Source of the DNA: a virus
Length of the DNA: 24,805 nucleotides
Strand: one strand, 5' to 3'
IMG/VR virus record: IMGVR_UViG_3300047550_001214
Span: 1-24,805 of that record
How positions within the stretch are numbered: position 1 is the stretch's first letter; each line of letters opens with the position of its first letter. Shown piece by piece: positions 697 to 20,032 of this stretch. Made by a program: the position numbers and the translations under genes. The notes under the pieces are model-generated. The model was not told where the DNA came from. It was given only the letters and a program-made list of their open reading frames with translations, and ran no database searches.

Positions 697-3600
697 ATGG
701 CGGGTAAATTAACAAAAAAACATTCTATTAATAATGCTAGAGAATTTGTGGATTCTGTCTTATCCACAAATACTAATTATTATATGTTTGCGTCGCATCA
801 TCAACCATGGTCCGATGAATCGTCCGCTCCTACAACTAATACCAGTATTGATTCAACGGAACATTCCATCTACAATCACATTTTGTTTGGAAAAAATGTC
901 ACAATAAATGATGTGAAATACATGGTTCCTCGATATAATTGGACATCCGGAACTGTTTACGCCACCTACGATAAAGATAATTCTAATTTATATAGTAACA
1001 ATTTTTTTGTTGTCACGCCGGAACAACATGTGTATAAAGTATTAAACAATAATAAAAATTCAACATCAACCATCAAACCATTGATAGTTAGTAATTCTAT
1101 TTTCAGAACTAGTGATAATTATGTTTGGAAATACATGTACACTATTGATGACACCACAATGAGAAAATTCGCCACGCGAGAATATATTCCAATTGTTGCA
1201 AATACAACGGTTCAACAATCTGCCAATCCGGGCGGTATTGATATAATTAAAATTGTATCCGGTGGTTCCTTGTGGTCCACTTATCAAACAGGGTTTATAC
1301 AGTCTGTTACTTCTGCTAATGAACTTATTATAGATTCCGCTAATTCTTCTTCTAATTCTAATTATTACACAGGTTCTTCAATATATCTTAAAAGTGGTTT
1401 AGGTTCTGGTCAAATTTCAAAAATTACTAGTTACAATGCCACAACAAAAGCAATTCAATTAGAAGATTCTTTAGATATTTCATTTAATTTAGAATTAAGC
1501 AATACAAGTGGAACATTCCTAGTTGGTGATATTGTAACAGAAGAAACTTATTTTTTGAATATCAGCTTCATAACAGGAACCTTTGATATTGGTGATACCA
1601 TAACACAAAGTTCAACCGGTGCAACTGGTGAAATTATACGAACAACTCTTGATAAAAATAATTTCACAGTAAAGAAAATTTCTGGAAATTTCACAGCGAA
1701 TTATGCCATAACTTCCGGCGATTCTCCCGTTCTTGGAACTGGAACTGTGACAGCGAATACTTCATCTAATACTATAGTTGGAACCGGAACAAATTTTACC
1801 ACATTTTTCCCCACTGCAACATTACCTCATTACATTCAAATTGGTGATTATTTTAGGCGCGTCACATCAATAACAAATAGTACAAGTTTGACAATTGATG
1901 GTTCCGGTTTTAATGGAAATTACACCGCTAATGTGTTTTATAAAGTTCCGTCTGCTGCGTATGTAACATACAGTTCAAATAATAATGCTAGTGGAACAAT
2001 TCTGTTTTCTGATTTAAATAGTGTTAAATTAGATTTGGCTAATATAAATAGAAAATTTTTTATAGGTGAAGTTGTATCACAGCCTGGATCGTCTAGCAAT
2101 GGTTCGGTTGTGTATGTTTCAAATACATATGTTATAGTTTCTGATGTTCAAGGACCCGGATTTCAAGCTTCCAATTCCACAACCACATTTACTATTTCTG
2201 GTTATACATCAAATGCAACTGCAAATGTTTCTGTTGTTGTATCGCGTCCATCCATTACTCTCAATGAAACTAGTGGAAGATTTGTGGTTGGTGATTACAT
2301 AACCACTACAACAGGAAGCAGCGCCAAAATTAAATCAGTATCTTCTCTTCCTAATGATGATACAGAATATGTAATTGCTCCAACTATTACGATAACTGGC
2401 GACGGGTATAATGCAAAAGCATATCCTGTTATCAATACATCTAATTATAGTATTGAGACTGTTAATATAATAAATCCTGGCACTGGTTATACACAGGCGA
2501 ACGTCACAGTAACAGCCAATTCGACATATGGTAATGGCGCCACACTGAGAGCGTCCATTGGACCCGTGAGAGGTCACGGGCATGATCCTGTTGATGAACT
2601 TGGTGGAAATTATGTTATGATTGTGTCTGATTTTGGAAAAGCATCAGATGAATCATATGATTTTCCATCATACGGAACATATAGAACAGTTGGATTAATA
2701 CGCAATCCGTTATTTAATGACGTAACTATAACAACACCGACCGCTAATGGTAATTTTAAAAGAGGATTGTTGACTGTAAATAATATATCGGGAAGTTTCA
2801 CTAATGGAGAAATAGTATATCAGCAAAATACAAATTCAACTGCTGTAATTTTAGTGGTGACAACAAACGGTTCCAATGCTTCAATATATTTGGATGATAT
2901 TAAGGGAAGTTTTATAGCGAACACTGCCAGTGACAATATTAAAGGATTGCAATCAACCGCAACAGCAAATGTAAGATTATCTAATACTTTTACATTTAGT
3001 AAAAATCCCGGAACACAAATAATTCAACAACAAAATACTGGTGCTAAGGGTATTCTAGTTGCAGTTAGTTCAAACGCTGTCAATATAACAAATGCATCGG
3101 GCACATTCGCTGTTGGACAAATTATATACGATTCCTCGACAAATACTTATTCAAACGCAGCATCCTTTAGTTTAGCATCTAACACAAAACCAACTACATT
3201 TTCGCGTTTCAATCAACTTGCCCGTGTTACTCTTTCATCAAATACAATATCGTTCACTAATAATGAGGTTGTTGAATTTAAGGCAAATATAACAAATACT
3301 AAATTAGGTGATGCGGTAATTTTTTCCACGACAGATGAAATTGATCTTCGTATAAGTGGCAACGCAATTCCATTTACGCAAAATGAAAAAATTACACAAA
3401 CAACAAGTGGTGCAACCGGAATTATGCGTTATTCAAATTCTGTTCACATGAAACTTACAAGTGTTGTTGGAACTTTTTCAAATCAAGCAGGTTATTCCAT
3501 AACAGGTGAAAGTTCTAGTGCAAGTGCTAATGTTAATTTAGTTCTTCCTGTATTGATGCTTTCTGATTATGACGGAACATGGGCTGAAAGTAATACAAAT

Positions 3601-3771
3601 TACATATACGGAATTAATTCTACTGCTAACGGTTATATTGCATACAGCAATACTATTATAAAACCAGAATTAGTTAGAGAAAGCGGGGATGTATTATATA
3701 TAGAAAATAGAGAATATATTACACGATCCGCGAATACAAGCGAAACAGTTAGATTACTAATTAAGTTTTAA
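697..3771 (+). CDS. 8: Expanded gp8-like baseplate wedge protein
   Basis: Gp8 is a wedge subunit of the T4 baseplate. T4 gp8 has 334 residues and this protein has 1024. Both ends match the family. Near the N-terminus are HQPWS (residues 35-39), a VPRYNW segment and YVWKYMY (142-148, T4 YVWEYLF). The last 28 residues, starting GDVLYIENREYI, correspond to the T4 end with EMIYMENRPPI. An internal block RGHGHDP (625-631) followed by ELGGNYVM and later TVGLIRNP also looks conserved in gp8 proteins of environmental T4-like phages. The extra length lies mostly at residues 180-600 and 690-985. It is made of beta-rich repeats of the form F-x-x-G-D/E-x-I/V plus one GTGTVTANTSS module. AGGA lies 7 bases before the ATG. 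The gene is followed 9 bases later by the DUF4815-type gene. The gp8 assignment is confident; the function of the inserts is unknown. Confidence 0.88.
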   Translation: MAGKLTKKHSINNAREFVDSVLSTNTNYYMFASHHQPWSDESSAPTTNTSIDSTEHSIYNHILFGKNVTINDVKYMVPRYNWTSGTVYATYDKDNSNLYSNNFFVVTPEQHVYKVLNNNKNSTSTIKPLIVSNSIFRTSDNYVWKYMYTIDDTTMRKFATREYIPIVANTTVQQSANPGGIDIIKIVSGGSLWSTYQTGFIQSVTSANELIIDSANSSSNSNYYTGSSIYLKSGLGSGQISKITSYNATTKAIQLEDSLDISFNLELSNTSGTFLVGDIVTEETYFLNISFITGTFDIGDTITQSSTGATGEIIRTTLDKNNFTVKKISGNFTANYAITSGDSPVLGTGTVTANTSSNTIVGTGTNFTTFFPTATLPHYIQIGDYFRRVTSITNSTSLTIDGSGFNGNYTANVFYKVPSAAYVTYSSNNNASGTILFSDLNSVKLDLANINRKFFIGEVVSQPGSSSNGSVVYVSNTYVIVSDVQGPGFQASNSTTTFTISGYTSNATANVSVVVSRPSITLNETSGRFVVGDYITTTTGSSAKIKSVSSLPNDDTEYVIAPTITITGDGYNAKAYPVINTSNYSIETVNIINPGTGYTQANVTVTANSTYGNGATLRASIGPVRGHGHDPVDELGGNYVMIVSDFGKASDESYDFPSYGTYRTVGLIRNPLFNDVTITTPTANGNFKRGLLTVNNISGSFTNGEIVYQQNTNSTAVILVVTTNGSNASIYLDDIKGSFIANTASDNIKGLQSTATANVRLSNTFTFSKNPGTQIIQQQNTGAKGILVAVSSNAVNITNASGTFAVGQIIYDSSTNTYSNAASFSLASNTKPTTFSRFNQLARVTLSSNTISFTNNEVVEFKANITNTKLGDAVIFSTTDEIDLRISGNAIPFTQNEKITQTTSGATGIMRYSNSVHMKLTSVVGTFSNQAGYSITGESSSASANVNLVLPVLMLSDYDGTWAESNTNYIYGINSTANGYIAYSNTIIKPELVRESGDVLYIENREYITRSANTSETVRLLIKF

Positions 3772-3780
3772 GGATTATAA

Positions 3781-6700
3781 ATGCCATTACAAACAGATTT
3801 AAATAGAGTTCCATATTATGATGATTATGATCCAGATAAAAAATTCCACAGAATTTTATTTCGTCCGGGAACTGCTGTTCAGGCTAGAGAATTAACACAA
3901 GTTCAATCAATCTTTCAAAATCAAATTGAAAGTTTTGGTAAGCACATATTTACCGATGGTAGTATTGTTGATGGATGTGATATTTCTTTTGACAGAAATA
4001 TGAATTATGTTAAGGTAACTGACAATTATACTAACGGATCGGCTATTTCTGTATCTGATTTGGAAGGTAAATTTTTAGTAGCAAATAGTACACTGAAAGC
4101 TTATGTTTTTTCTGTTACAGATGGTTCGGAGGGAACACCACCAGACTTAAAAACCGCATATATTAAATATATTAATAGTGGAATATATTCAAATGGCGCA
4201 CAACAATCTGTATTTGACGCAGATGAAATTTTGAATGTTTACACCACTGCAAATGTAAATTTTGGTATTATAAATGTTGCAAACAGCACTTCTTCTGCAA
4301 CCGGAAATAGTTTCTCTGCTTCTGTTACATCCGGCGTTGTTTTTCATCGTGGTGTTTTTATTGGAGTGGATTCACAAAAATTAATAGTTTCAAAATATAA
4401 TAATTCACCACACAAAGTTACTGTTGGTTTCACCACAGTTGAAGAAATTATAACTCCGGAAATTGACACTTCCCTACTGGATAATTCCCAAGGGTCTTTT
4501 AACTACAACGCTCCTGGCGCACATAGATTAAAATTAACTCCCACGTTGGTTGTTAAAGAAACTTCAAATGTAGATTCAACAGATACTTCCGATTTCTTCT
4601 CCGTTGCAGATTTTCAATACGGTAATGCAACCCGCACATACATCGATCCACAATATGCTTCTCTTGGTGTTGAAATGGCACGTAGAACATATGAAGAAAG
4701 CGGTAATTACGTTGTAAATCCATTTCCTGTAAGCACAGAGGTTATTTCCAGTAATACATCACACTTCAATACAATAGTTGACAAAGGTATTGGTTATGTG
4801 CATGGTTACAGAATTGAATACGAAGATAAAGTATTCATTCCAACAAGGAAGGGTAATGATACTGAAATAGTTCAAGATGTTACCATAACTGGAAATTTCG
4901 GTAATTACGTATTTGTCAATGAATTGGCCGGGTCTTTTGATTTTAATAATTTAGGATCAGTTAGTTTACGTAATACTGTTGCAAATGCTGTATCAACAGG
5001 AACATTAACATCTGGTGCTGCACCGGGTTCTGAAATAGGCACTGCAAATATAAGAACTATTGTTTATTACAGTGGAACGCCTGGGTTGGGTAGTGCGCAG
5101 TATAAATTATACTTGTCAAATATTAAAATGAATAGTGGGCAAACATTTAAAAATGTTCGTTCTATCTATGGTATTTCTGGTGGTAATAAAGGGTTTGCTG
5201 ATGTTGTTCTAACGAGCGGAAATGCCGTTTTACAAGAAACAAATCTTTCCAGCCTAGTTTTACCTTTAGGTAAAAACGCAATTAAAAATTTGAGAAACGG
5301 TGAATCTGCCCCTAATGATTACACAACGTATTACACATTTAGAACAAGCAATACTGTCACATTCACAGCATCATTAGGTTCTGTTGCTACTTTAACTATT
5401 CCATCAAGCGGTGTGGGAACATCAGGTCAAGAATTACCATATGGCGGTGGAACACTATCAACGACAGCGGAAGCAGATTTCGTTATAATAGCAACCGGCT
5501 CTGCAAATACTGCAAATTTGACGGGAACAGTTTCAACCAGCGGAAATACGGTTACTGGCGTTGGAACAGATTTCAATAATTCTAGTTCTGGTTTGAATTA
5601 TTTACAGAGCGGAGATTTTGTCTACGTTGTAAATTCAACTGCATCAGAGCTTAGACAAGTATCTGTTGTGACGAATTCAACTGTTTTCACGGTTAATACA
5701 AATTTCGTTGGAACTTTCCCTGCTGGCGCAACAGTAAAGAGACATATACCATCTGGTAGTATTCTCAATATGGCAAAACCAACTGCCAATATTTCAGTAT
5801 CTAATACAACGTCTGCCAACATCTATCCGGGCACTGCGTTCAACGTTGATTTGAACACAATCGTGTATTATAATTTGAAACGTTCCACGGCGGTTGGTGC
5901 GTCAAAGGTGATTAATAAAGATAGATATGTCAAAATTAGTTTGGCATCTAACACAACTGGACCATGGTGTTTAGGTATTCCTGATGTTCTACGAGTTGCC
6001 GGTGTTTATATTGGCAACTCTTCTTCTGTTCATGGAGAATACAGTACATCAAATAGAAACATTGTAAACCAATTTACTTTAGATGATGGTCAGAGAGATG
6101 ATAGATATGATCTAGCATATCTTAAAAAATCCACCACACAAACATTTTCCACAACAGATAGACTACTAGTAAAATTACACCATTTTACTCATAATAAATC
6201 AAGTGGGGTTGGTTTCCTTTCAGTTGAATCTTATCCAATTGATGACGCTAACACATCAAATACGACTGCTATAACTACCATGGAAATTCCTAGATATATG
6301 ACAACCGGTGGTAATTTACTAGATTTGAGAGATTGCATCGATTTTAGACCAATACTTGCAAATACCGCCAATAGTGCAACAACTGTAAACACTGCTACAA
6401 TTAACCCATCAAATAGCTCTACATTTGATATTATTTCCGGTGGCGCATATTCATTTGTTCCTGATGAAGAATTTGTGACGGATTTTACTTTCTATAAAGG
6501 TAGAGTGGATAAAGTCTATATGGAACCGACTGGAACTATTGGTATGGTTGAAGGTAAAGCTTCACTAACTCCAAAAACCCCAAATGATAAACCAAATACA
6601 ATGACTTTGGGTATTTTGAAAATACCTCCATACCCATCACTTCCATATAATTTTTCACTAAAATATCGTAGACCAGATTACGCAGTTCTGTTGACAGTTC

Positions 6701-8271
6701 AACAAATCAAAAGATTTACCATGAGAGATATTGGTGTTCTTGAAGATAGAATTAAAAGACTGGAATATTACACCACTCTTAATATGTTAGAATTGAACAC
6801 TAAACAAATCTCTGTTCTTGACGCTAATGGTAATGATCGTTTCAAAAATGGCTTCCTTGCCGATCCATTTGATGATGCAAATATAGCTGACACTGATAAT
6901 GTTGAATTTATAAATTATTCATGTGGGTTTGATTTAGTTAATAGTGAAATTGCGCCACGCCAAATAATAAATTATGTTCCGTTGGATGTATATTCAAAGA
7001 GCAATGTTGTTCAACTTGGTAGATATACTCATAATAAAAATATGATACCAAATAGGGTGCTAACATTTGGTGGTTACGGTTCACCATTTTTAACACAGTT
7101 GGGTGCAAGCAAAAAAAGAAATGTGTCGGAAGGAAATATTTTCAGATTCAAAGGTACAGTTTCATTAAATCCTCCGGGGTCGCATAAAATAGATGTTACA
7201 ACAAATCCTGCACTGACCGCACAATTTGCAACATTAGGAAATGTCAAAGTTACAAATCAGGTTTTAATTGGTGCATCATATAGAATTACCGATACAGGAA
7301 CGGAAATTCCTCTTTCTTCTAATTTGAGTGCCACAGTTAATCCTTCTCAATCAGCGGGAACAACATTTACATTTAACGATTTGATACAAGATATTTCAGT
7401 TCAACCATATCTTGATCCATTGTTAATTAAATTTTCTGCTAATGGATTAAAACCAAACACGAATATGAATGCGTTTTTTGACAATATAGATATAAATTCA
7501 TATTGCCAGGAAGCAAATTCTTCTTTTGCTGTCACTAAAACTTTGGGCGCGCAGTTGAAAACTGATAGCACCGGTAATTTGTATGGATTTTTCTTTATGC
7601 CTAAAGGCATCTTTAGAACAGGGGAAAGAATTTTCAAATTGTGCGATATAACAAATCCAATTACTTCCTCTGAGGTTATGACATCCGAGGCATCTACTAT
7701 TTTCTATGGAAGTAATATTGATATTGCAAAATCTTCAATAAATCTTCAATCGCAACCACACGATGTTGATTTAATTTCTGCAATAACTCGCCCTGTTATG
7801 TCTATACCAACCCCTGTCATGAATAATACATACAATACAAATATAACAAATAATAACACCTATCAACAAATAATAAATGAAATAACACAGATAAATCAAA
7901 CCATTAATAATATCACTAATACTACAACTATTGTTGCCTCTGGTGATACTGATCCAACAACGACTCCCGATCCAACCGTAACACCAATAAACGAATTACC
8001 GGCTACTATTTCTCTTCCACCAATAACCTATGCACCACCAGGGGTTCTTGTTGGATTGCCAGTTCCTTCTCAATTTACATATACTGCGCCTGCCATTTCA
8101 GACAATGCTAATAATGCTTTCTACAATGGTGCGGATAATGGTTCTGGTATAATGGTGCAAGTAGTTGATTTAAGCGGCGAAGGTGGTCCGGGGTGGTTTA
8201 AATTAGTTCCTTTAGAATCTTTAGGTTCAACAGATACATATGTTGGCGATGGCGTTAGTAACGAAGGATAA
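3781..8271 (+). CDS. DUF4815-type giant virion/baseplate protein, N-terminal portion (split gene)
   Basis: The protein has 1496 residues. The N-terminus carries the family signature: PYYDDYDPDKKFHRILFRPG (11-30), then AVQARELTQVQ and a QIESFG segment. A second conserved block runs from RRPDYA (963-968) through RFTMRDIGVLEDRIKRLEYY to LDANGNDRFKNGFL (1013-1026). Between them lie beta-rich stretches, including a GTVSTSGNTVTGVGTDF module encoded near 5521-5763. Residues 1347-1386 are very Asn/Thr-rich with a heptad-like QQIINEITQINQTINNI segment, suggesting a short trimeric coiled coil. A Pro-rich linker follows to about residue 1440. In homologues I recall, the chain continues into a D-P-x-AQTF domain; here a TAA ends it and that domain is the next gene, in the same frame. 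AGGA stands 7 bases before the ATG. A structural, probably baseplate or adhesion-related role is likely; the molecular function is not known. Confidence 0.82.
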   Translation: MPLQTDLNRVPYYDDYDPDKKFHRILFRPGTAVQARELTQVQSIFQNQIESFGKHIFTDGSIVDGCDISFDRNMNYVKVTDNYTNGSAISVSDLEGKFLVANSTLKAYVFSVTDGSEGTPPDLKTAYIKYINSGIYSNGAQQSVFDADEILNVYTTANVNFGIINVANSTSSATGNSFSASVTSGVVFHRGVFIGVDSQKLIVSKYNNSPHKVTVGFTTVEEIITPEIDTSLLDNSQGSFNYNAPGAHRLKLTPTLVVKETSNVDSTDTSDFFSVADFQYGNATRTYIDPQYASLGVEMARRTYEESGNYVVNPFPVSTEVISSNTSHFNTIVDKGIGYVHGYRIEYEDKVFIPTRKGNDTEIVQDVTITGNFGNYVFVNELAGSFDFNNLGSVSLRNTVANAVSTGTLTSGAAPGSEIGTANIRTIVYYSGTPGLGSAQYKLYLSNIKMNSGQTFKNVRSIYGISGGNKGFADVVLTSGNAVLQETNLSSLVLPLGKNAIKNLRNGESAPNDYTTYYTFRTSNTVTFTASLGSVATLTIPSSGVGTSGQELPYGGGTLSTTAEADFVIIATGSANTANLTGTVSTSGNTVTGVGTDFNNSSSGLNYLQSGDFVYVVNSTASELRQVSVVTNSTVFTVNTNFVGTFPAGATVKRHIPSGSILNMAKPTANISVSNTTSANIYPGTAFNVDLNTIVYYNLKRSTAVGASKVINKDRYVKISLASNTTGPWCLGIPDVLRVAGVYIGNSSSVHGEYSTSNRNIVNQFTLDDGQRDDRYDLAYLKKSTTQTFSTTDRLLVKLHHFTHNKSSGVGFLSVESYPIDDANTSNTTAITTMEIPRYMTTGGNLLDLRDCIDFRPILANTANSATTVNTATINPSNSSTFDIISGGAYSFVPDEEFVTDFTFYKGRVDKVYMEPTGTIGMVEGKASLTPKTPNDKPNTMTLGILKIPPYPSLPYNFSLKYRRPDYAVLLTVQQIKRFTMRDIGVLEDRIKRLEYYTTLNMLELNTKQISVLDANGNDRFKNGFLADPFDDANIADTDNVEFINYSCGFDLVNSEIAPRQIINYVPLDVYSKSNVVQLGRYTHNKNMIPNRVLTFGGYGSPFLTQLGASKKRNVSEGNIFRFKGTVSLNPPGSHKIDVTTNPALTAQFATLGNVKVTNQVLIGASYRITDTGTEIPLSSNLSATVNPSQSAGTTFTFNDLIQDISVQPYLDPLLIKFSANGLKPNTNMNAFFDNIDINSYCQEANSSFAVTKTLGAQLKTDSTGNLYGFFFMPKGIFRTGERIFKLCDITNPITSSEVMTSEASTIFYGSNIDIAKSSINLQSQPHDVDLISAITRPVMSIPTPVMNNTYNTNITNNNTYQQIINEITQINQTINNITNTTTIVASGDTDPTTTPDPTVTPINELPATISLPPITYAPPGVLVGLPVPSQFTYTAPAISDNANNAFYNGADNGSGIMVQVVDLSGEGGPGWFKLVPLESLGSTDTYVGDGVSNEG
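8264..8268 (+). promoter_or_regulatory. Shine-Dalgarno AAGGA for the second half of the split DUF4815-type gene
   Basis: AAGGA lies six bases before the ATG at 8275 and directly before the TAA that ends the upstream gene. A good ribosome binding site at this point favours real re-initiation of the downstream half as a separate protein over a simple sequencing error. It does not exclude stop-codon readthrough. Confidence 0.5.
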
Positions 8272-8274
8272 TAT

Positions 8275-10098
8275 ATGTTAGCACAAACTTTTTATGTAAC
8301 TGATCCAACATTTGAAAATACTGGTTTTTATGTTACAGATGTTACATTATTTTTATCAAAAAAACCAACTGATAATAATATAGGTATTACTGTAACGATT
8401 AATGAAGTTGAAAATGGTATTCCTACATCAAATATTATACCATTTGCAAAATGTAGGTATCTGCCCGATGTAATAAACACATCAACGGATGGTAGCACTG
8501 GTGTGGGATTTACATTTGGTATACCCATTTTTCTTAAATGTCACACACAATATGCTATTGTCGTTTCCGCCGATGGCGATCATCCTGATTATGAATTATG
8601 GACAGGAAAAATAGGTGAAGTAGATCAATCATCGGCATCAAAGACTTTAATTAAAACTAATAGTTCTGTTGGTGTTCTATTATCTTCATCTGATGGTAGA
8701 ACATGGACCGCATACCAAGAAGAAGATTTAAAATTCACTATTTCCCGTGCGGTATTTTCTTCTAATAGTGGTAATGTAATTTTCACAAATGCAAATACCG
8801 ATTATCTGGTGAGAGATTCCATTTCTCAAAGAAATTCCTTTTTGAATGGAGAAAGAATTTATGTTTCAAATGGTGTCATTGGTTCAACCAATGTTACAAC
8901 AAACTCTTCATCAACAACTATTACTGTTTATCCAGCAAACAGTGAATACAGTAATGCAGCAAATAAATTAATTTATCTGGCAACGGAAAATTATTCACAA
9001 ACAGATATACGGCAAATTTTAAGTATTGTCAATAATCCGGGTAGCAATACACAGATAACATTGAATGGTGCGCCAACATTCACAACAACTAATGCATCCG
9101 TTGGATTTTTATATAGTAATGGTGCTTTATACGGAGATGAATGTTATACTAGCGGACCACGCCACTTAATTTTGTATCGATCCACTGCAAATACCACGAT
9201 GAATTTTAGAGAATTGTTCGTATCTAAAAATGTAAGTCCTTTATTAATTGGAAAAATGTCCGGAACTGCTGCTAATTTACATGGTCTTGCTGCTGTTCAA
9301 TATGATGAAGCGGTTGCACAATTTGCTCATTCCATACCACCAAAAACAAATCTTCAAGTATCTGCCAAAGGATTGCTTGCTGTTAGCAACACGATGGATA
9401 CAGATTTTATTCCTCTAATTTTCGACAAAAATCAAAAATTTATTGATAATCTTCGCTATGTAAGATCGCGCTCTGATGAACTTTATTATGCAAGTGGAAC
9501 AAAATCCCTACAAGTTAAAATACAATTCAATAGTGAAGCACAATCTATGGTCACTCCATTATTGAATGATATTAAACAATCGATGTTATTAATTCATAAT
9601 AGAATATCAAAAGCAAATACTGTTCTTCTTGATTTGGAAACAAATCCATCCGGTAGTCAATTACCAAATAAATATATTTCTAAACCAGTTGAATTATTAC
9701 AAGAAGCAGAGGATTTAATAGTTTATTTAACTGCTTACAGACCAATGAATACTGATATTCATGTGTATTGTAAATTATTGAATCAAGAAGATACTGATGC
9801 GTTTGCAAATAAATATTGGACTTTGATGGAGGAAGTTACTCCTAAACCATATTCCAGTAAAGTAGAATTAACGGATATGAGGGAACTGCAATTCAAAATT
9901 CCAACGGGTAACAGTTCAATAACTACCACAACTGGTTTTTTGAATGCCAATAATAGTAATGTAGTTCGCTATTACACAAATGAAGGTGATTATTTTGATG
10001 GGTATAACACATTTGCAATTAAAATAATATTAACGGCAGATCAATCATTTATAGTTCCACGAGTAGACGATATGAGAGCGATAGCGGTGCAAGTATAA
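8275..10098 (+). CDS. DUF4815-type virion protein, C-terminal portion (AQTF domain)
   Basis: The protein has 607 residues and begins MLAQTFYVTDPTFENTGFYV. In homologues I remember, the equivalent D-P-x-AQTF-x-V segment is an internal domain boundary of a single very long protein. This is followed by FLSKKPTDN, VTINEVENGIPTSNIIP, STDGSTGVGFTF and YAIVVSADGDHPDYELW, a lectin-like or beta-sandwich pattern of that family. The C-terminal 200 residues include PVELLQEAEDLIVYLTAYRP and a WTLMEE segment, also typical of the end of the long form. It is in the same frame as the upstream gene, separated only by TAA-TAT. The stop overlaps the next start as TAATG. It is probably assembled with the 1496-residue partner in the virion. 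Confidence is good for being the missing half; the function is inferred. Confidence 0.78.
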   Translation: MLAQTFYVTDPTFENTGFYVTDVTLFLSKKPTDNNIGITVTINEVENGIPTSNIIPFAKCRYLPDVINTSTDGSTGVGFTFGIPIFLKCHTQYAIVVSADGDHPDYELWTGKIGEVDQSSASKTLIKTNSSVGVLLSSSDGRTWTAYQEEDLKFTISRAVFSSNSGNVIFTNANTDYLVRDSISQRNSFLNGERIYVSNGVIGSTNVTTNSSSTTITVYPANSEYSNAANKLIYLATENYSQTDIRQILSIVNNPGSNTQITLNGAPTFTTTNASVGFLYSNGALYGDECYTSGPRHLILYRSTANTTMNFRELFVSKNVSPLLIGKMSGTAANLHGLAAVQYDEAVAQFAHSIPPKTNLQVSAKGLLAVSNTMDTDFIPLIFDKNQKFIDNLRYVRSRSDELYYASGTKSLQVKIQFNSEAQSMVTPLLNDIKQSMLLIHNRISKANTVLLDLETNPSGSQLPNKYISKPVELLQEAEDLIVYLTAYRPMNTDIHVYCKLLNQEDTDAFANKYWTLMEEVTPKPYSSKVELTDMRELQFKIPTGNSSITTTTGFLNANNSNVVRYYTNEGDYFDGYNTFAIKIILTADQSFIVPRVDDMRAIAVQV

Positions 10099-10327: not shown

Positions 10328-12553
10328 ATGTCTATATCTGTTGCCAATATTGATGTATCTGTTGACACTTTTAATGTTATGTTCAACAGATTTAATCAAA
10401 TTGCTTCTATTGTAAGTAATTACACCGTCACTGTTGACACTACTGCTGTTGGCAACAATTCCACTGGTAATGGATATGTTATAGGTATCTTTGGTGCCGA
10501 TACATTAACCGCCGGTAATTATCTTCGTGGTGGTTCTATTTTAAGTCCAAATACATTAACTATTTCTTCAAATGTTGTGGCTAGTTCAAATGTTGCGTTA
10601 TCAGATCGTTTAACCGTTTCTGGTAATACATCTATTGCCAATACATTAATTGTTTCTGGTAATACAACGGTAAGCGGGTTGCTTACAGCAACATCTAATG
10701 TTTCATTAACAAATGCCTTGACTGTTTCTGGTAATACTTCAATTGCAAATACATTAATTGTTTCGGGTAATACTACCGTCAATGGGTTATTAAATGTATC
10801 CGGTAATACTTCTTTAACAGATCGTTTAACTGTTTCCGGAAATACATCTATTGCAAATACATTAATTGTTTCTGGTAATACAACTGTCAGTGGATTACTG
10901 TCTGTATCTGGTAATACTTCTATCTCTAACACATTAATAGTTTCTGGCAATACAACTATAAATTCTGTTTTGTTCGTGTCCGGTAATACTTCCGTTGGTG
11001 GATTATTAACTATTTCAGGTAATACATCTATTGCAAATACATTAATAGTTTCCGGTAATACAACTGTAAGCGAATTACTGTCTGTATCTGGTAATACTTC
11101 TATATCCAATACATTAATTGTTTCTGGTAATACAACTGTCAGTGGAAGAACAACTTTAACAGGAAACACAACCGTATCAGATCGTTTAACTGTTTCTGGT
11201 AATACCTCTATTGCAAATACATTAATTGTTTCTGGTAATACAACTGTCAGTGGATTACTGTCTGTATCTGGTAATACTGCGATTTCCGGAAATACATCTA
11301 TTGCAAACACATTAATTGTTTCTGGTAATACAACTGTCAGCGGTCTCCTAAATATTTCCGGTAATACAACTGTATCAGATCGTTTAACTGTTTCTGGAAA
11401 TACATCTATTGCAAACACATTAATTGTTTCTGGCAACACGACTGTCAGCGGAAGAACAACTTTAACAGGAAACACAACTGTAAGTGGATTACTAACTGCT
11501 TCCGGCAATACAACTGTCAGTGGTCTTTTAAATGTATCCGGCAATGCTTCATTAACCGGGTCATTTACTTTAAATGCATCTACAACTGATACTGCATTTA
11601 AAGTTCTTCAAAGAGGGACTGGTAATTCATTTGTAGTTGAAGATGTTTCGGGGGATTCTTCTCCATTTTTAATTGATACACAAGGATATGTTGTTGTTGG
11701 TTATAATGCTACATTTAGTTTCGGTGACGATAATCAAATAGGAAAAATAGCAACGCATTCTAACGGTGGATCGCACCAATTAGATATGTTACAATGGTCA
11801 AACAACACCACTGCTGCTAATAAAGTAATAGCATTTAAATCGCGATCAACAACTGTTGGAACATATGATACATCTGGAAATACATTTGCTAGTTCTGATC
11901 AATTTTTTCGAATAGATTGTATTGGTGACAATGGAGGCGGTTCAGATGTTCTGTGTGCAAGACTTATGGCAATTACAGATGGAACAGCTACAATAGGAAA
12001 TACAACACCGGGGACTGGTATAATTCCAATTTCTTGGAGATTTTACACTGACGCTAGTAATAGTAGTCCTTTAGCAGGTGGATCAAAATTCAATATTAGT
12101 GCGAATGGTAATATTGGTTTAGGAACAGATACGCCTGACGCTAAATTGAAAGTTATCGGAACTGCAAATGTAACTGGCAATGCTGGATTTTCCACTATAG
12201 TAACTATTTCTGGAAATACAACTATCAATGGTTCTTTGACTTCAAATAACGCAATATCATTTAAAGCACCACCAACTGTAACCGCCACATCATACACTGT
12301 GGTAAATTCCGATTACACGGTTATCTTCAATACAAGCGCAAATTGTAATGTTGTCATGCCATCGGCTTCGACTTTCACGGGAAGAGTTTTAATATTTAAA
12401 TCTTCAAATACAACAACCATTAACAGCACGTCTACTAATATTGTTGCTTTAGCCGGTGGCGCTGCTAGTAATAATATATTAGTCAATACTGCCGGAAAAT
12501 TTGCAATGCTGCAATCGGACGGAACTAATTGGGTTGTGATGATGGGGAATTAG
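10328..12553 (+). CDS. Repeat-rich tail-fibre-like protein
   Basis: The protein has 741 residues. Residues 1-76 form a non-repetitive head (SVANIDVSVDTFNVMFNRFN), a plausible attachment domain. Residues 77-412 are about 27 copies of a 12-residue unit with consensus L-x-V-S-G-N-T-x-V-S-G-x, a regular beta-strand pattern expected for a trimeric beta-prism or beta-helix shaft. Residues 413-600 are a globular section, including AFKVLQRGTGNSFVVEDVSG. Two more diverged units appear near 610-640 (VTISGNTTINGSL). The last 95 residues, with SYTVVNSDYTVIF and MLQSDGTNWVVM, resemble C-terminal domains common in phage fibres. No peptidase S74 chaperone is visible. GGGGAA stands about 10 bases upstream of the ATG. 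It probably forms a fibre or spike for host recognition; no T4 gp12, gp34 or gp37 similarity is obvious. Confidence 0.8.
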   Translation: MSISVANIDVSVDTFNVMFNRFNQIASIVSNYTVTVDTTAVGNNSTGNGYVIGIFGADTLTAGNYLRGGSILSPNTLTISSNVVASSNVALSDRLTVSGNTSIANTLIVSGNTTVSGLLTATSNVSLTNALTVSGNTSIANTLIVSGNTTVNGLLNVSGNTSLTDRLTVSGNTSIANTLIVSGNTTVSGLLSVSGNTSISNTLIVSGNTTINSVLFVSGNTSVGGLLTISGNTSIANTLIVSGNTTVSELLSVSGNTSISNTLIVSGNTTVSGRTTLTGNTTVSDRLTVSGNTSIANTLIVSGNTTVSGLLSVSGNTAISGNTSIANTLIVSGNTTVSGLLNISGNTTVSDRLTVSGNTSIANTLIVSGNTTVSGRTTLTGNTTVSGLLTASGNTTVSGLLNVSGNASLTGSFTLNASTTDTAFKVLQRGTGNSFVVEDVSGDSSPFLIDTQGYVVVGYNATFSFGDDNQIGKIATHSNGGSHQLDMLQWSNNTTAANKVIAFKSRSTTVGTYDTSGNTFASSDQFFRIDCIGDNGGGSDVLCARLMAITDGTATIGNTTPGTGIIPISWRFYTDASNSSPLAGGSKFNISANGNIGLGTDTPDAKLKVIGTANVTGNAGFSTIVTISGNTTINGSLTSNNAISFKAPPTVTATSYTVVNSDYTVIFNTSANCNVVMPSASTFTGRVLIFKSSNTTTINSTSTNIVALAGGAASNNILVNTAGKFAMLQSDGTNWVVMMGN
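10556..11563 (+). repeat. 36-bp in-frame tandem repeat array encoding the fibre shaft
   Basis: About 27 units of 36 bp (12 codons) run without interruption, centred on the codons for V-S-G-N-T. Alternate units differ, giving a 72-bp super-repeat (SIANTLIVSGNTT or SISNTLIVSGNTT occurs nine times). Most units vary at synonymous third positions, while one 72-bp stretch is identical at 10847-10918 and 11207-11278, exactly 360 bp apart. The first and the twentieth units are 18 codons long instead of 12, a half-unit insertion. The pattern is consistent with growth by unequal recombination under selection on the protein. Confidence 0.9.
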
Positions 12554-17644: not shown

Positions 17645-20032
17645 ATGGCAATTAACAGAGTTAGTCCTGGCATTGAAATTAGAGAATTTGACAGAAGTAT
17701 CGTAGCCCGTGGTCCAAGAGCGCCATCGGGTGCTTTAGCAGGTGTTTTCCGTTCTGGTCCTATCAATACACCTGTATTAATTGGAAATAAATCTCAATTA
17801 ATTGAAACTTTCGGTGAACCTTCCGCCGATAATATGGAGACTTTTTACACTGCATTTAATTTTTTAAATTATACCGACAAAATATATGTTGTAAGAGTTG
17901 CCAATAATTCATTAAGTTCCTATGCAAAATCAACCATTGAATTAGAATCTGTATCTATTTTAAGCCAAAGTGGCGCATTTACAAACTCTGATATCATTCA
18001 TGTTCTTGGTGGTAATACGACTACATCTGCTAATCTATCAATTGTGACAAATAGCTCGGGAACTATTACTGCCATTAGCATTGTGAATGGTGGTATTTTT
18101 GATTCCAGTTCCTTTCCAATTGGCAATAATGGTATTTTAAATATTGCTGCTAACAATTCTACTACTGCCGATACAACTCTGTATTTGAATGTAACATACA
18201 AACCTGTTTCTGTCGCTAACCAGCAAGCATTTTCTGTGGAAACTTCAATGGTTTCTGAAAGAGGGGTTTCTTATTATGATGATACAGATTGGCGTTCAAA
18301 AGTAGATTATGATGGTTGGTCTACAGATACAAATCTTACATTTATTTCAAGAACTCCAACGGACGATTTTAATAACTATCGCGTTTCTATTGTACACAGT
18401 AAAAATGCATATTCTTCTAGTTTAGTAAGTGCATTTAATTCAGCAAGTGCTAATGTGTCTATCAGTAGCGGTGCAAAACAAGTTACAATTCAAACTGCCA
18501 ATTCTACTCATGCTGCTAATTTAGTTAATAGTATTGGTTTCAGAGATAATCTGTTTATCAATCTCCCTGCTGCTAAAGGCGCGGCTGCAATTTCTGGTCA
18601 GAATTTAATTACTGGTAAAGTAGTGGATCAGGCAAATGTTATTCTTTATTTCCAAAATCCATGGAATATCGGCACTCGCACAATTTACGCGAATTCAACC
18701 CATTTCTACAGTGGATCAGGTAATACTTTACAAGCTTCCACACAAGGTATTGTGAGAAAATGGGAATTTGCTGGTAAAGCCGGATTTAGTGAGTTGTCAA
18801 CCACTGGTTATTCCGATGTATCTGCATTAACAAGACCCGATGGAACTAAAATTGTTGATAAAGTTTATGTTGCTGTAACAAATGACAAAAACGAATTACT
18901 GTGGTCAACTACTGGTTCTCGTGTAAGATCGGTTGCTACTAATTTTAAAAATAATTATTATGTTGATAAAATTAATAAAGATGTCAACAACAAATACATT
19001 TGGTGGGCAAATCATATTTCAGGTCTTACCACAAGTAATACTGCCGGTGCATTAATTGACTCCACACAATCATTACCATTTCATTCATTCTTAGGGCGTG
19101 GTTCCGATGTTGTAACAGAGAATAGCGTAACTCTCGCAACCTTAATGGATGGTTATGATAAATTTGCCGATAAAACCACCATTGATATTGATGTTATCAT
19201 GACTGGTAAATCTGTTGGTGGAACAAATGGCGAGGGATTGACTAATTATATTATCGAAAATATTTGCGAAAAAAGACGTGATTGTATCGTATTTTCTTCA
19301 CCACAAAAAGATGATCTTACTAATGAATTCAATAAAAGAATATATCAAAAAATAAATGATTTCAGTGAAAGCGTTATCAATAGCTCTTTCTGTTTCTTGG
19401 ATAGTGGTTATAAAACAATCTATGATAGATACAGCGATTCATTAGTGGATGTTCCATTGAATGGTGATATTGCTGGCATTTATATGAGAACTATAAGAAG
19501 ACTAGGTCCGTGGTGGTCTCCGGCCGGCTATAACAGAGGCGAAGTCATAGGTGGGCGTAGTCTATTATATAATCCATCTGAATTTGATCGTGATCAATTA
19601 TATCCAGCATGTGTTAATCCGGTTGTTAAATTCCCCGGAGAAGATATACTTTTATTTGGCGATAAAACTACATTAAATCAAGGTTCTGCATTTGATCGTA
19701 TCAATGTTCGCGGTCTTTTCATCTATCTACAAAAAGTAATTGCGGATATTTCAAAATTCACTCTTTTCGAGTTCAACGATGAATTCACAAGAGCAAGATT
19801 TGTTGGTCAAATCGATCCAATTCTTCGTGACGTAAAAGGACGCAGAGGTATTATTGACTATCGTCTAATTTGCGATGAAACAAATAATACACCTGATATA
19901 ATTGATGCTAATGGATTTGTAGCAGATATATATATTAAACCATCAAGATCAATCAATTACATTCAATTGAACTTTGTTGCTTTGGCAACAGGCACGCAAT
20001 TTAATGAAATTATTGGTCAATTCGAGATTTAA
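17645..20032 (+). CDS. 18: Contractile tail sheath protein gp18
   Basis: Gp18 polymerises around the tube and contracts on infection. The N-terminus is typical: MAINRVSPGIEIREFDRS, then GALAGVFRSGPINTPVLIG and FLNYTDKIYVVRVANN. The conserved C-terminal sheath domain begins near IAGIYMRTIRRLG and PWWSPAG (622-628), continues with VNPVVKFPGEDILLFGDKT and FDRINVRGLFIYLQKVI, and ends NYIQLNFVALATGTQFNEI. The length is 795 residues against 659 in T4. At least part of the excess is a beta-rich insertion at about residues 105-190 with GTITAISIVNGGIFDSSSFP, which resembles modules found in the phage's baseplate proteins. GGAG precedes the ATG by 7 bases. Gp19 follows after 14 bases. The assignment is confident. 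Confidence 0.95.
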   Translation: MAINRVSPGIEIREFDRSIVARGPRAPSGALAGVFRSGPINTPVLIGNKSQLIETFGEPSADNMETFYTAFNFLNYTDKIYVVRVANNSLSSYAKSTIELESVSILSQSGAFTNSDIIHVLGGNTTTSANLSIVTNSSGTITAISIVNGGIFDSSSFPIGNNGILNIAANNSTTADTTLYLNVTYKPVSVANQQAFSVETSMVSERGVSYYDDTDWRSKVDYDGWSTDTNLTFISRTPTDDFNNYRVSIVHSKNAYSSSLVSAFNSASANVSISSGAKQVTIQTANSTHAANLVNSIGFRDNLFINLPAAKGAAAISGQNLITGKVVDQANVILYFQNPWNIGTRTIYANSTHFYSGSGNTLQASTQGIVRKWEFAGKAGFSELSTTGYSDVSALTRPDGTKIVDKVYVAVTNDKNELLWSTTGSRVRSVATNFKNNYYVDKINKDVNNKYIWWANHISGLTTSNTAGALIDSTQSLPFHSFLGRGSDVVTENSVTLATLMDGYDKFADKTTIDIDVIMTGKSVGGTNGEGLTNYIIENICEKRRDCIVFSSPQKDDLTNEFNKRIYQKINDFSESVINSSFCFLDSGYKTIYDRYSDSLVDVPLNGDIAGIYMRTIRRLGPWWSPAGYNRGEVIGGRSLLYNPSEFDRDQLYPACVNPVVKFPGEDILLFGDKTTLNQGSAFDRINVRGLFIYLQKVIADISKFTLFEFNDEFTRARFVGQIDPILRDVKGRRGIIDYRLICDETNNTPDIIDANGFVADIYIKPSRSINYIQLNFVALATGTQFNEIIGQFEI

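Follow-up and report, generated by a model that had tools for sequence, protein, structure and literature searches.

A VrlC-type baseplate protein encoded by two genes in an uncultured T4-like phage, very probably through an old gene fission at a domain boundary

Proteins of the DUF4815/VrlC family are usually, though not by strict definition, single polypeptides. In a 24.8-kb IMG/VR virus record (24,805 nucleotides; the whole stretch analysed is called the window), the corresponding sequence is divided by an in-frame TAA into two open reading frames, ORF1 and ORF2. Does this stop mark a boundary between two subunits of a normally fused protein, a site of occasional readthrough, or an error in the sequence? 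All three readings were offered by a preliminary description of this DNA. We treated the pair as a variant of the family because annotated members, such as that of Stenotrophomonas phage DLP_6, are also split.

The window carries the structural cluster of an uncultured, T4-like contractile-tailed phage. The C-terminus of a wedge protein is followed by a gp8-type wedge protein (697-3771), ORF1, ORF2, a repeat-rich fibre gene, a small fibre-assembly-like gene, and neck genes of the gp13/14/15 type, and then by terminase, sheath, tube, portal, protease, and scaffold genes. With the gp8-type gene upstream and the fibre, neck, terminase, sheath, tube, and portal genes downstream, the pair sits in the baseplate cluster, as a DUF4815/VrlC protein should. 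We found no near nucleotide relative of the window among 50,697 phage records, and none turned up when GTDB genome contigs were scanned. The fibre-like gene (10328-12553) contains a degenerate repeat array at 10598-11482, with periods of 36, 72, 108, and 180 nt, that encodes N/T/S/V-rich repeats. The product of the tail sheath gene (17645-20032) is 795 aa long and aligns nearly from one end to the other with a sheath profile of 496 columns, which implies a large internal insertion.

The features of the split gene are as follows, all on the plus strand.
3781-8271 (+): ORF1, N-terminal subunit of the split VrlC/DUF4815 baseplate protein, 1496 aa, with Pfam, phrog_358, and PDB 9euf matches
7411-7710 (+): GLKPNT beta-domain of ORF1, about residues 1211-1310, the last folded domain ahead of the break
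7714-8268 (+): disordered N/T/P-rich linker at the ORF1 C-terminus, residues 1312-1496, of a length that varies between relatives
8264-8268 (+): AAGGA ribosome-binding site for ORF2, identified by sequence, within the last codons of ORF1
8269-8271 (+): TAA stop of ORF1, the same in contigs L007/L118 and L008/L094/L119
8275-10098 (+): ORF2, C-terminal subunit, 607 aa, a multi-domain beta protein with carbohydrate-binding-like folds
8278-8784 (+): AQTF domain, residues 2-170, more strongly conserved than the rest of ORF2

Both reading frames belong to one family. The N-terminal module is identified by the match of ORF1 to Pfam DUF4815 (PF16075; E 1.7e-46, 159 bits against a curated cut-off of 30). 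In phrog_358, which is VrlC in annotated phages, ORF1 matches columns 1-1239 of 2056 (E 3.2e-225) and ORF2, with the AQTF and later C-terminal domains, matches columns 1424-2055 (E 2.6e-73), so that the two matches are consecutive and do not overlap. A single chain of known structure, 9euf from the baseplate of S. aureus phage phi812, is likewise matched by both, by ORF1 with E 1.2e-19 and by the AQTF domain at residues 794-951 with E 1.7e-30; the same domain matches residues 773-927 of the A511 gp106-type protein (E 1.1e-21, 36% identity). The model of ORF2 also finds 9EUF as its best PDB fold match (E 4.8e-12, about 620 columns); the TM-scores are low (0.38), perhaps because the several domains of the chain are posed differently. 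Among its best matches in viral predicted structures are separate proteins of 787 and 555 aa, and from these lengths, which equal those of the second genes of Caulobacter phage Cr30 and DLP_6, we take their identity. By homology and fold, the window protein is the VrlC/A511 gp106-type "pyramid" of double-layered baseplates.

The break lies at a predicted folding boundary. Ahead of it, the GLKPNT domain carries the motif FSANGLKPNT (ORF1 residues 1218-1227), which is conserved among homologues. We modelled ORF1 residues 1171-1496 and ORF2 as one chain, a forced readthrough model in which the GLKPNT domain (model residues 41-140) had pLDDT mostly above 80 and nearly all of residues 142-326, a linker of about 185 aa, fell below 50. 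This linker aligns poorly among relatives and varies in length; against L011, the last 150 aligned codons of ORF1 are 35% identical, compared with 62% for the whole of ORF1. The disordered stretch stops and the next strand starts at ORF2 Met1, and thus the stop and the new start fall where a linker predicted to be disordered gives way to a folded domain. Modelled alone with AlphaFold, ORF2 had a mean pLDDT of 85, was modelled from residue 1, and began with a confident strand at residues 2-8.

The junction itself reads GGA-TAA-TAT-ATG. As had been described, frames of 1496 and 607 aa share one phase with only TAA-TAT between them (TAA 8269-8271, TAT 8272-8274, ATG 8275), and an AAGGA ends 6 nt upstream of the new ATG; both points are borne out by the coordinates. 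The same AAGGA precedes the ORF2 start in the relatives L009 and L011, as well as the start of ORF1, aaggattataaATG. ORF2 begins MLAQTF. The statement that this is an internal D-P-x-AQTF boundary in single-chain homologues also proved correct, since the equivalent sites read NGTDPISQTF (phiM12), GRGDPIAQSI (RHph_I1_18), GGPDPVAQTF (OC), WKDPLAQTF (L012), and, in the A511 gp106-type Listeria protein, YDPLAQSF. The 3-nt in-phase spacing is by itself unremarkable, as three further gene pairs of the window show a stop-NNN-start arrangement (13755/13759, 22771/22775, which is also TAA-TAT-ATG, and 23687/23691). What goes beyond chance is the match of the two frames to successive parts of a single protein family. 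A promoter and terminator scan gave counts equal to the shuffled expectation.

We then asked how the split is distributed among homologues. Both halves could be scored at 84 non-redundant loci, of which 62 were single-chain and 22 split (L107 included), frequencies that are not unbiased because the loci were gathered by similarity to the window. Homologues are therefore not all two-gene, and the first proposal, that the window pair provides as two functional subunits a baseplate protein that is usually one chain, is supported. On a quick LG+G4 tree (75 rows) built from the N module alone, the split or fused label required nine changes, at least eight of them on well-supported branches, or eight changes if the dubious L032 was counted as fused. 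A single split clade was rejected (p-AU 2e-30). The window's own six-member clade (SH-aLRT 96) is split in all six members, 0-4 aa ahead of AQTF. Across the family, the breaks fell into three classes: 0-24 aa ahead of AQTF (the window clade, DLP_6, L038, L070, and L056); about 130-230 aa ahead, before or near the GLKPNT region (Cr30, L023/L034, L044/L046, L054/L060, and L085); and about 420 aa ahead (L100/L101/L105). In addition, at L048:4358-7826 the N module is itself divided into frames of 287 and 883 aa, the latter in another phase, by fission or frameshift.

The distribution bears on the direction of change. Had the two genes been ancestral, the single-chain proteins would be fusions. The 11-row subclade that includes the window, with ten split members and one fused (RHph_I1_18), does make a local re-fusion in RHph_I1_18 possible. 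However, all distant outgroups examined (Listeria phage LP-124, whose gene is 98.9% identical to A511 gp106, Bacillus phage BvP, Vi01, and Kuja) are single-chain, as are the sampled cyanophages and phi812, and so fission is the likely direction. The split points also differ among lineages in a way that fits separate fissions. We regard an ancestral two-gene state as very unlikely; the window split is instead one of several independent fissions in the family.

It is also highly improbable that the TAA is read through at low frequency, so that a little fused chain is made along with the two separate chains. ORF1 and ORF2 share a phase in the window, L009, and L011, and the in-phase TAA-TAT-ATG would permit a rare readthrough product in the window phage. 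Genes of this kind have a single conserved in-frame stop and a conserved downstream phase, but L009 has three in-phase stops ahead of the ORF2 ATG and L011 has two, while ORF2 is in another phase in the next nearest relatives, the three remaining members of the window's clade (L015, L017, and L020), and also in DLP_6. In L017, a third gene of 382 aa with the GLKPNT domain even sits between the two. The extra stops and shifted frames mean that this is not conserved readthrough, and the readthrough alternative of the preliminary description is disfavoured accordingly. The stop-NNN-start spacing, being common in the window, speaks against it too. We found no unusual RNA structure (z 0.20) and no Rfam match at the junction. 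In the middle gene of the three-gene VrlC of L017 (L017:11328-12476), the GLKPNT domain is followed by a Cys-containing, helical-looking tail for which we found no Pfam match.

We give almost no credence to a sequencing or assembly error, or to a fresh nonsense mutation in one contig. Such cases may occur in the set: at L032:4694-4696, a single in-frame TAA lies inside the conserved N module with no start or ribosome site nearby, and, unlike the genuine splits, it looks like an error or a nonsense mutation in one contig. In the window, by contrast, the ribosome site and ATG are placed exactly at a domain start. When the same stop was sought in related genomes, the exact TAA junction was present in two other IMG/VR contigs, which match the window with 100% identity across 11,132 and 19,291 nt, and diverged relatives keep the split with independent spacers. 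The break falls at the same residue in L009/L010 and L011/L014, whose aa identity in ORF2 is 73% and 61% and whose AAGGA-containing spacers are 15 and 24 nt long, respectively. Identical or conserved junctions in independent contigs thus rule out a sequencing error. Relative to L009, pN/pS was 0.28 for ORF1 and 0.28 for ORF2, rough values with synonymous sites near saturation, and both frames are under purifying selection.

A chance meeting of unrelated frames is ruled out by the phrog_358 continuity across ORF1 and ORF2, and a reassigned TAA by the 13 of 17 other genes checked in the window that also end with TAA.

Based on these results, we are confident that the VrlC/A511 gp106-type pyramid protein is encoded here as two genes that arose long ago, when a fission divided one gene at a domain boundary, with ORF2 made from its own start. 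The analysis establishes the homology, the continuity of the two halves, the retention of the split among relatives, and, as a prediction, the folding boundary. ORF1 carries the DUF4815 module, presumably the baseplate-attaching part, followed by the GLKPNT beta-domain and a tail that is disordered; ORF2 is a separately folding C-terminal subunit with lectin/CBM-like beta-domains that presumably face the host surface. Translation of ORF2 from its own ATG and AAGGA is probably by coupled reinitiation just past the end of ORF1, judging from the spacing. Both chains are presumably incorporated in the virion and joined in one complex.

We propose the anchoring role for ORF1 and the host-facing role for ORF2 by analogy, because of the literature on related baseplates. 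The A511-type pyramid or tripod is trimeric, attaches to the baseplate wedge, and reorients on host contact (PMC9863714, PMC11406892), and A511 gp106 pyramids produce the double-layered baseplate and turn toward the cell wall on contact (PMC9863714). Bacillus-phage homologues of A511 gp106 carry a pair of CBM-like folds at the C-terminus (PMC11406892); in one homologue the first fold spans residues 811-959, a position that matches that of the AQTF domain. In pelagiphages, VrlC is considered part of the two-layer baseplate (PMC7029224).

A broader idea, which we hold to be rather unlikely, is that repeated fission frees the host-facing end of VrlC as an exchangeable receptor-contact subunit. 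Its copy number or identity could then vary apart from the DUF4815 anchor, and split lineages could gain new host specificity by swapping ORF2-type genes. VrlC, a large part of the double-layered baseplate in abundant cyanophages and pelagiphages, is little characterised. The natural split points show where it tolerates a chain break and supply manageable parts for structural and binding studies, namely an anchor and a host-side subunit of 607 aa. For annotators, a two- or three-gene VrlC is normal and should not be labelled a frameshift or error. In the record of Pseudomonas phage Cygsa01, a whole VrlC-type frame is unannotated (L112:6480-11315).

Compared with known systems, the window pair is of the same family over its full length as VrlC of the T4-like phages of cyanobacteria, SAR11, and rhizobia (phrog_358), which also lies downstream of a gp8-type wedge gene and has the DPxAQTF boundary, but as a single chain of roughly 1800-2750 aa rather than two. 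A511 gp106 and the phi812 DUF4815 protein (9EUF), which have a structural baseplate role (PMC9863714, PMC11406892), share the order of DUF4815 module and AQTF domain; they are single chains of about 1134-1152 aa, whereas ORF1 plus ORF2 exceed this length and include a long linker and additional sequence at the C-terminus. Two-gene versions have already been annotated, without comment, in DLP_6 (the VlrC pair AAY80_267/AAY80_268) and Cr30 (AGS81093.1/AGS81092.1), and in the part of the literature covered we found no paper describing the split in these phages or otherwise. Both are of the same family, fall outside the window's six-member clade, and differ from the window in having the second gene in another phase. 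In DLP_6, the start codon overlaps the stop and lies 11 aa before AQTF; its first gene (L004:2494-7968) has a linker of about 689 aa from N module to AQTF, compared with about 300-480 in most relatives. In Cr30, the break lies 134 aa before AQTF. The window pair is thus a well-supported variant and, given the annotated splits of DLP_6 and Cr30, not the first of its type.
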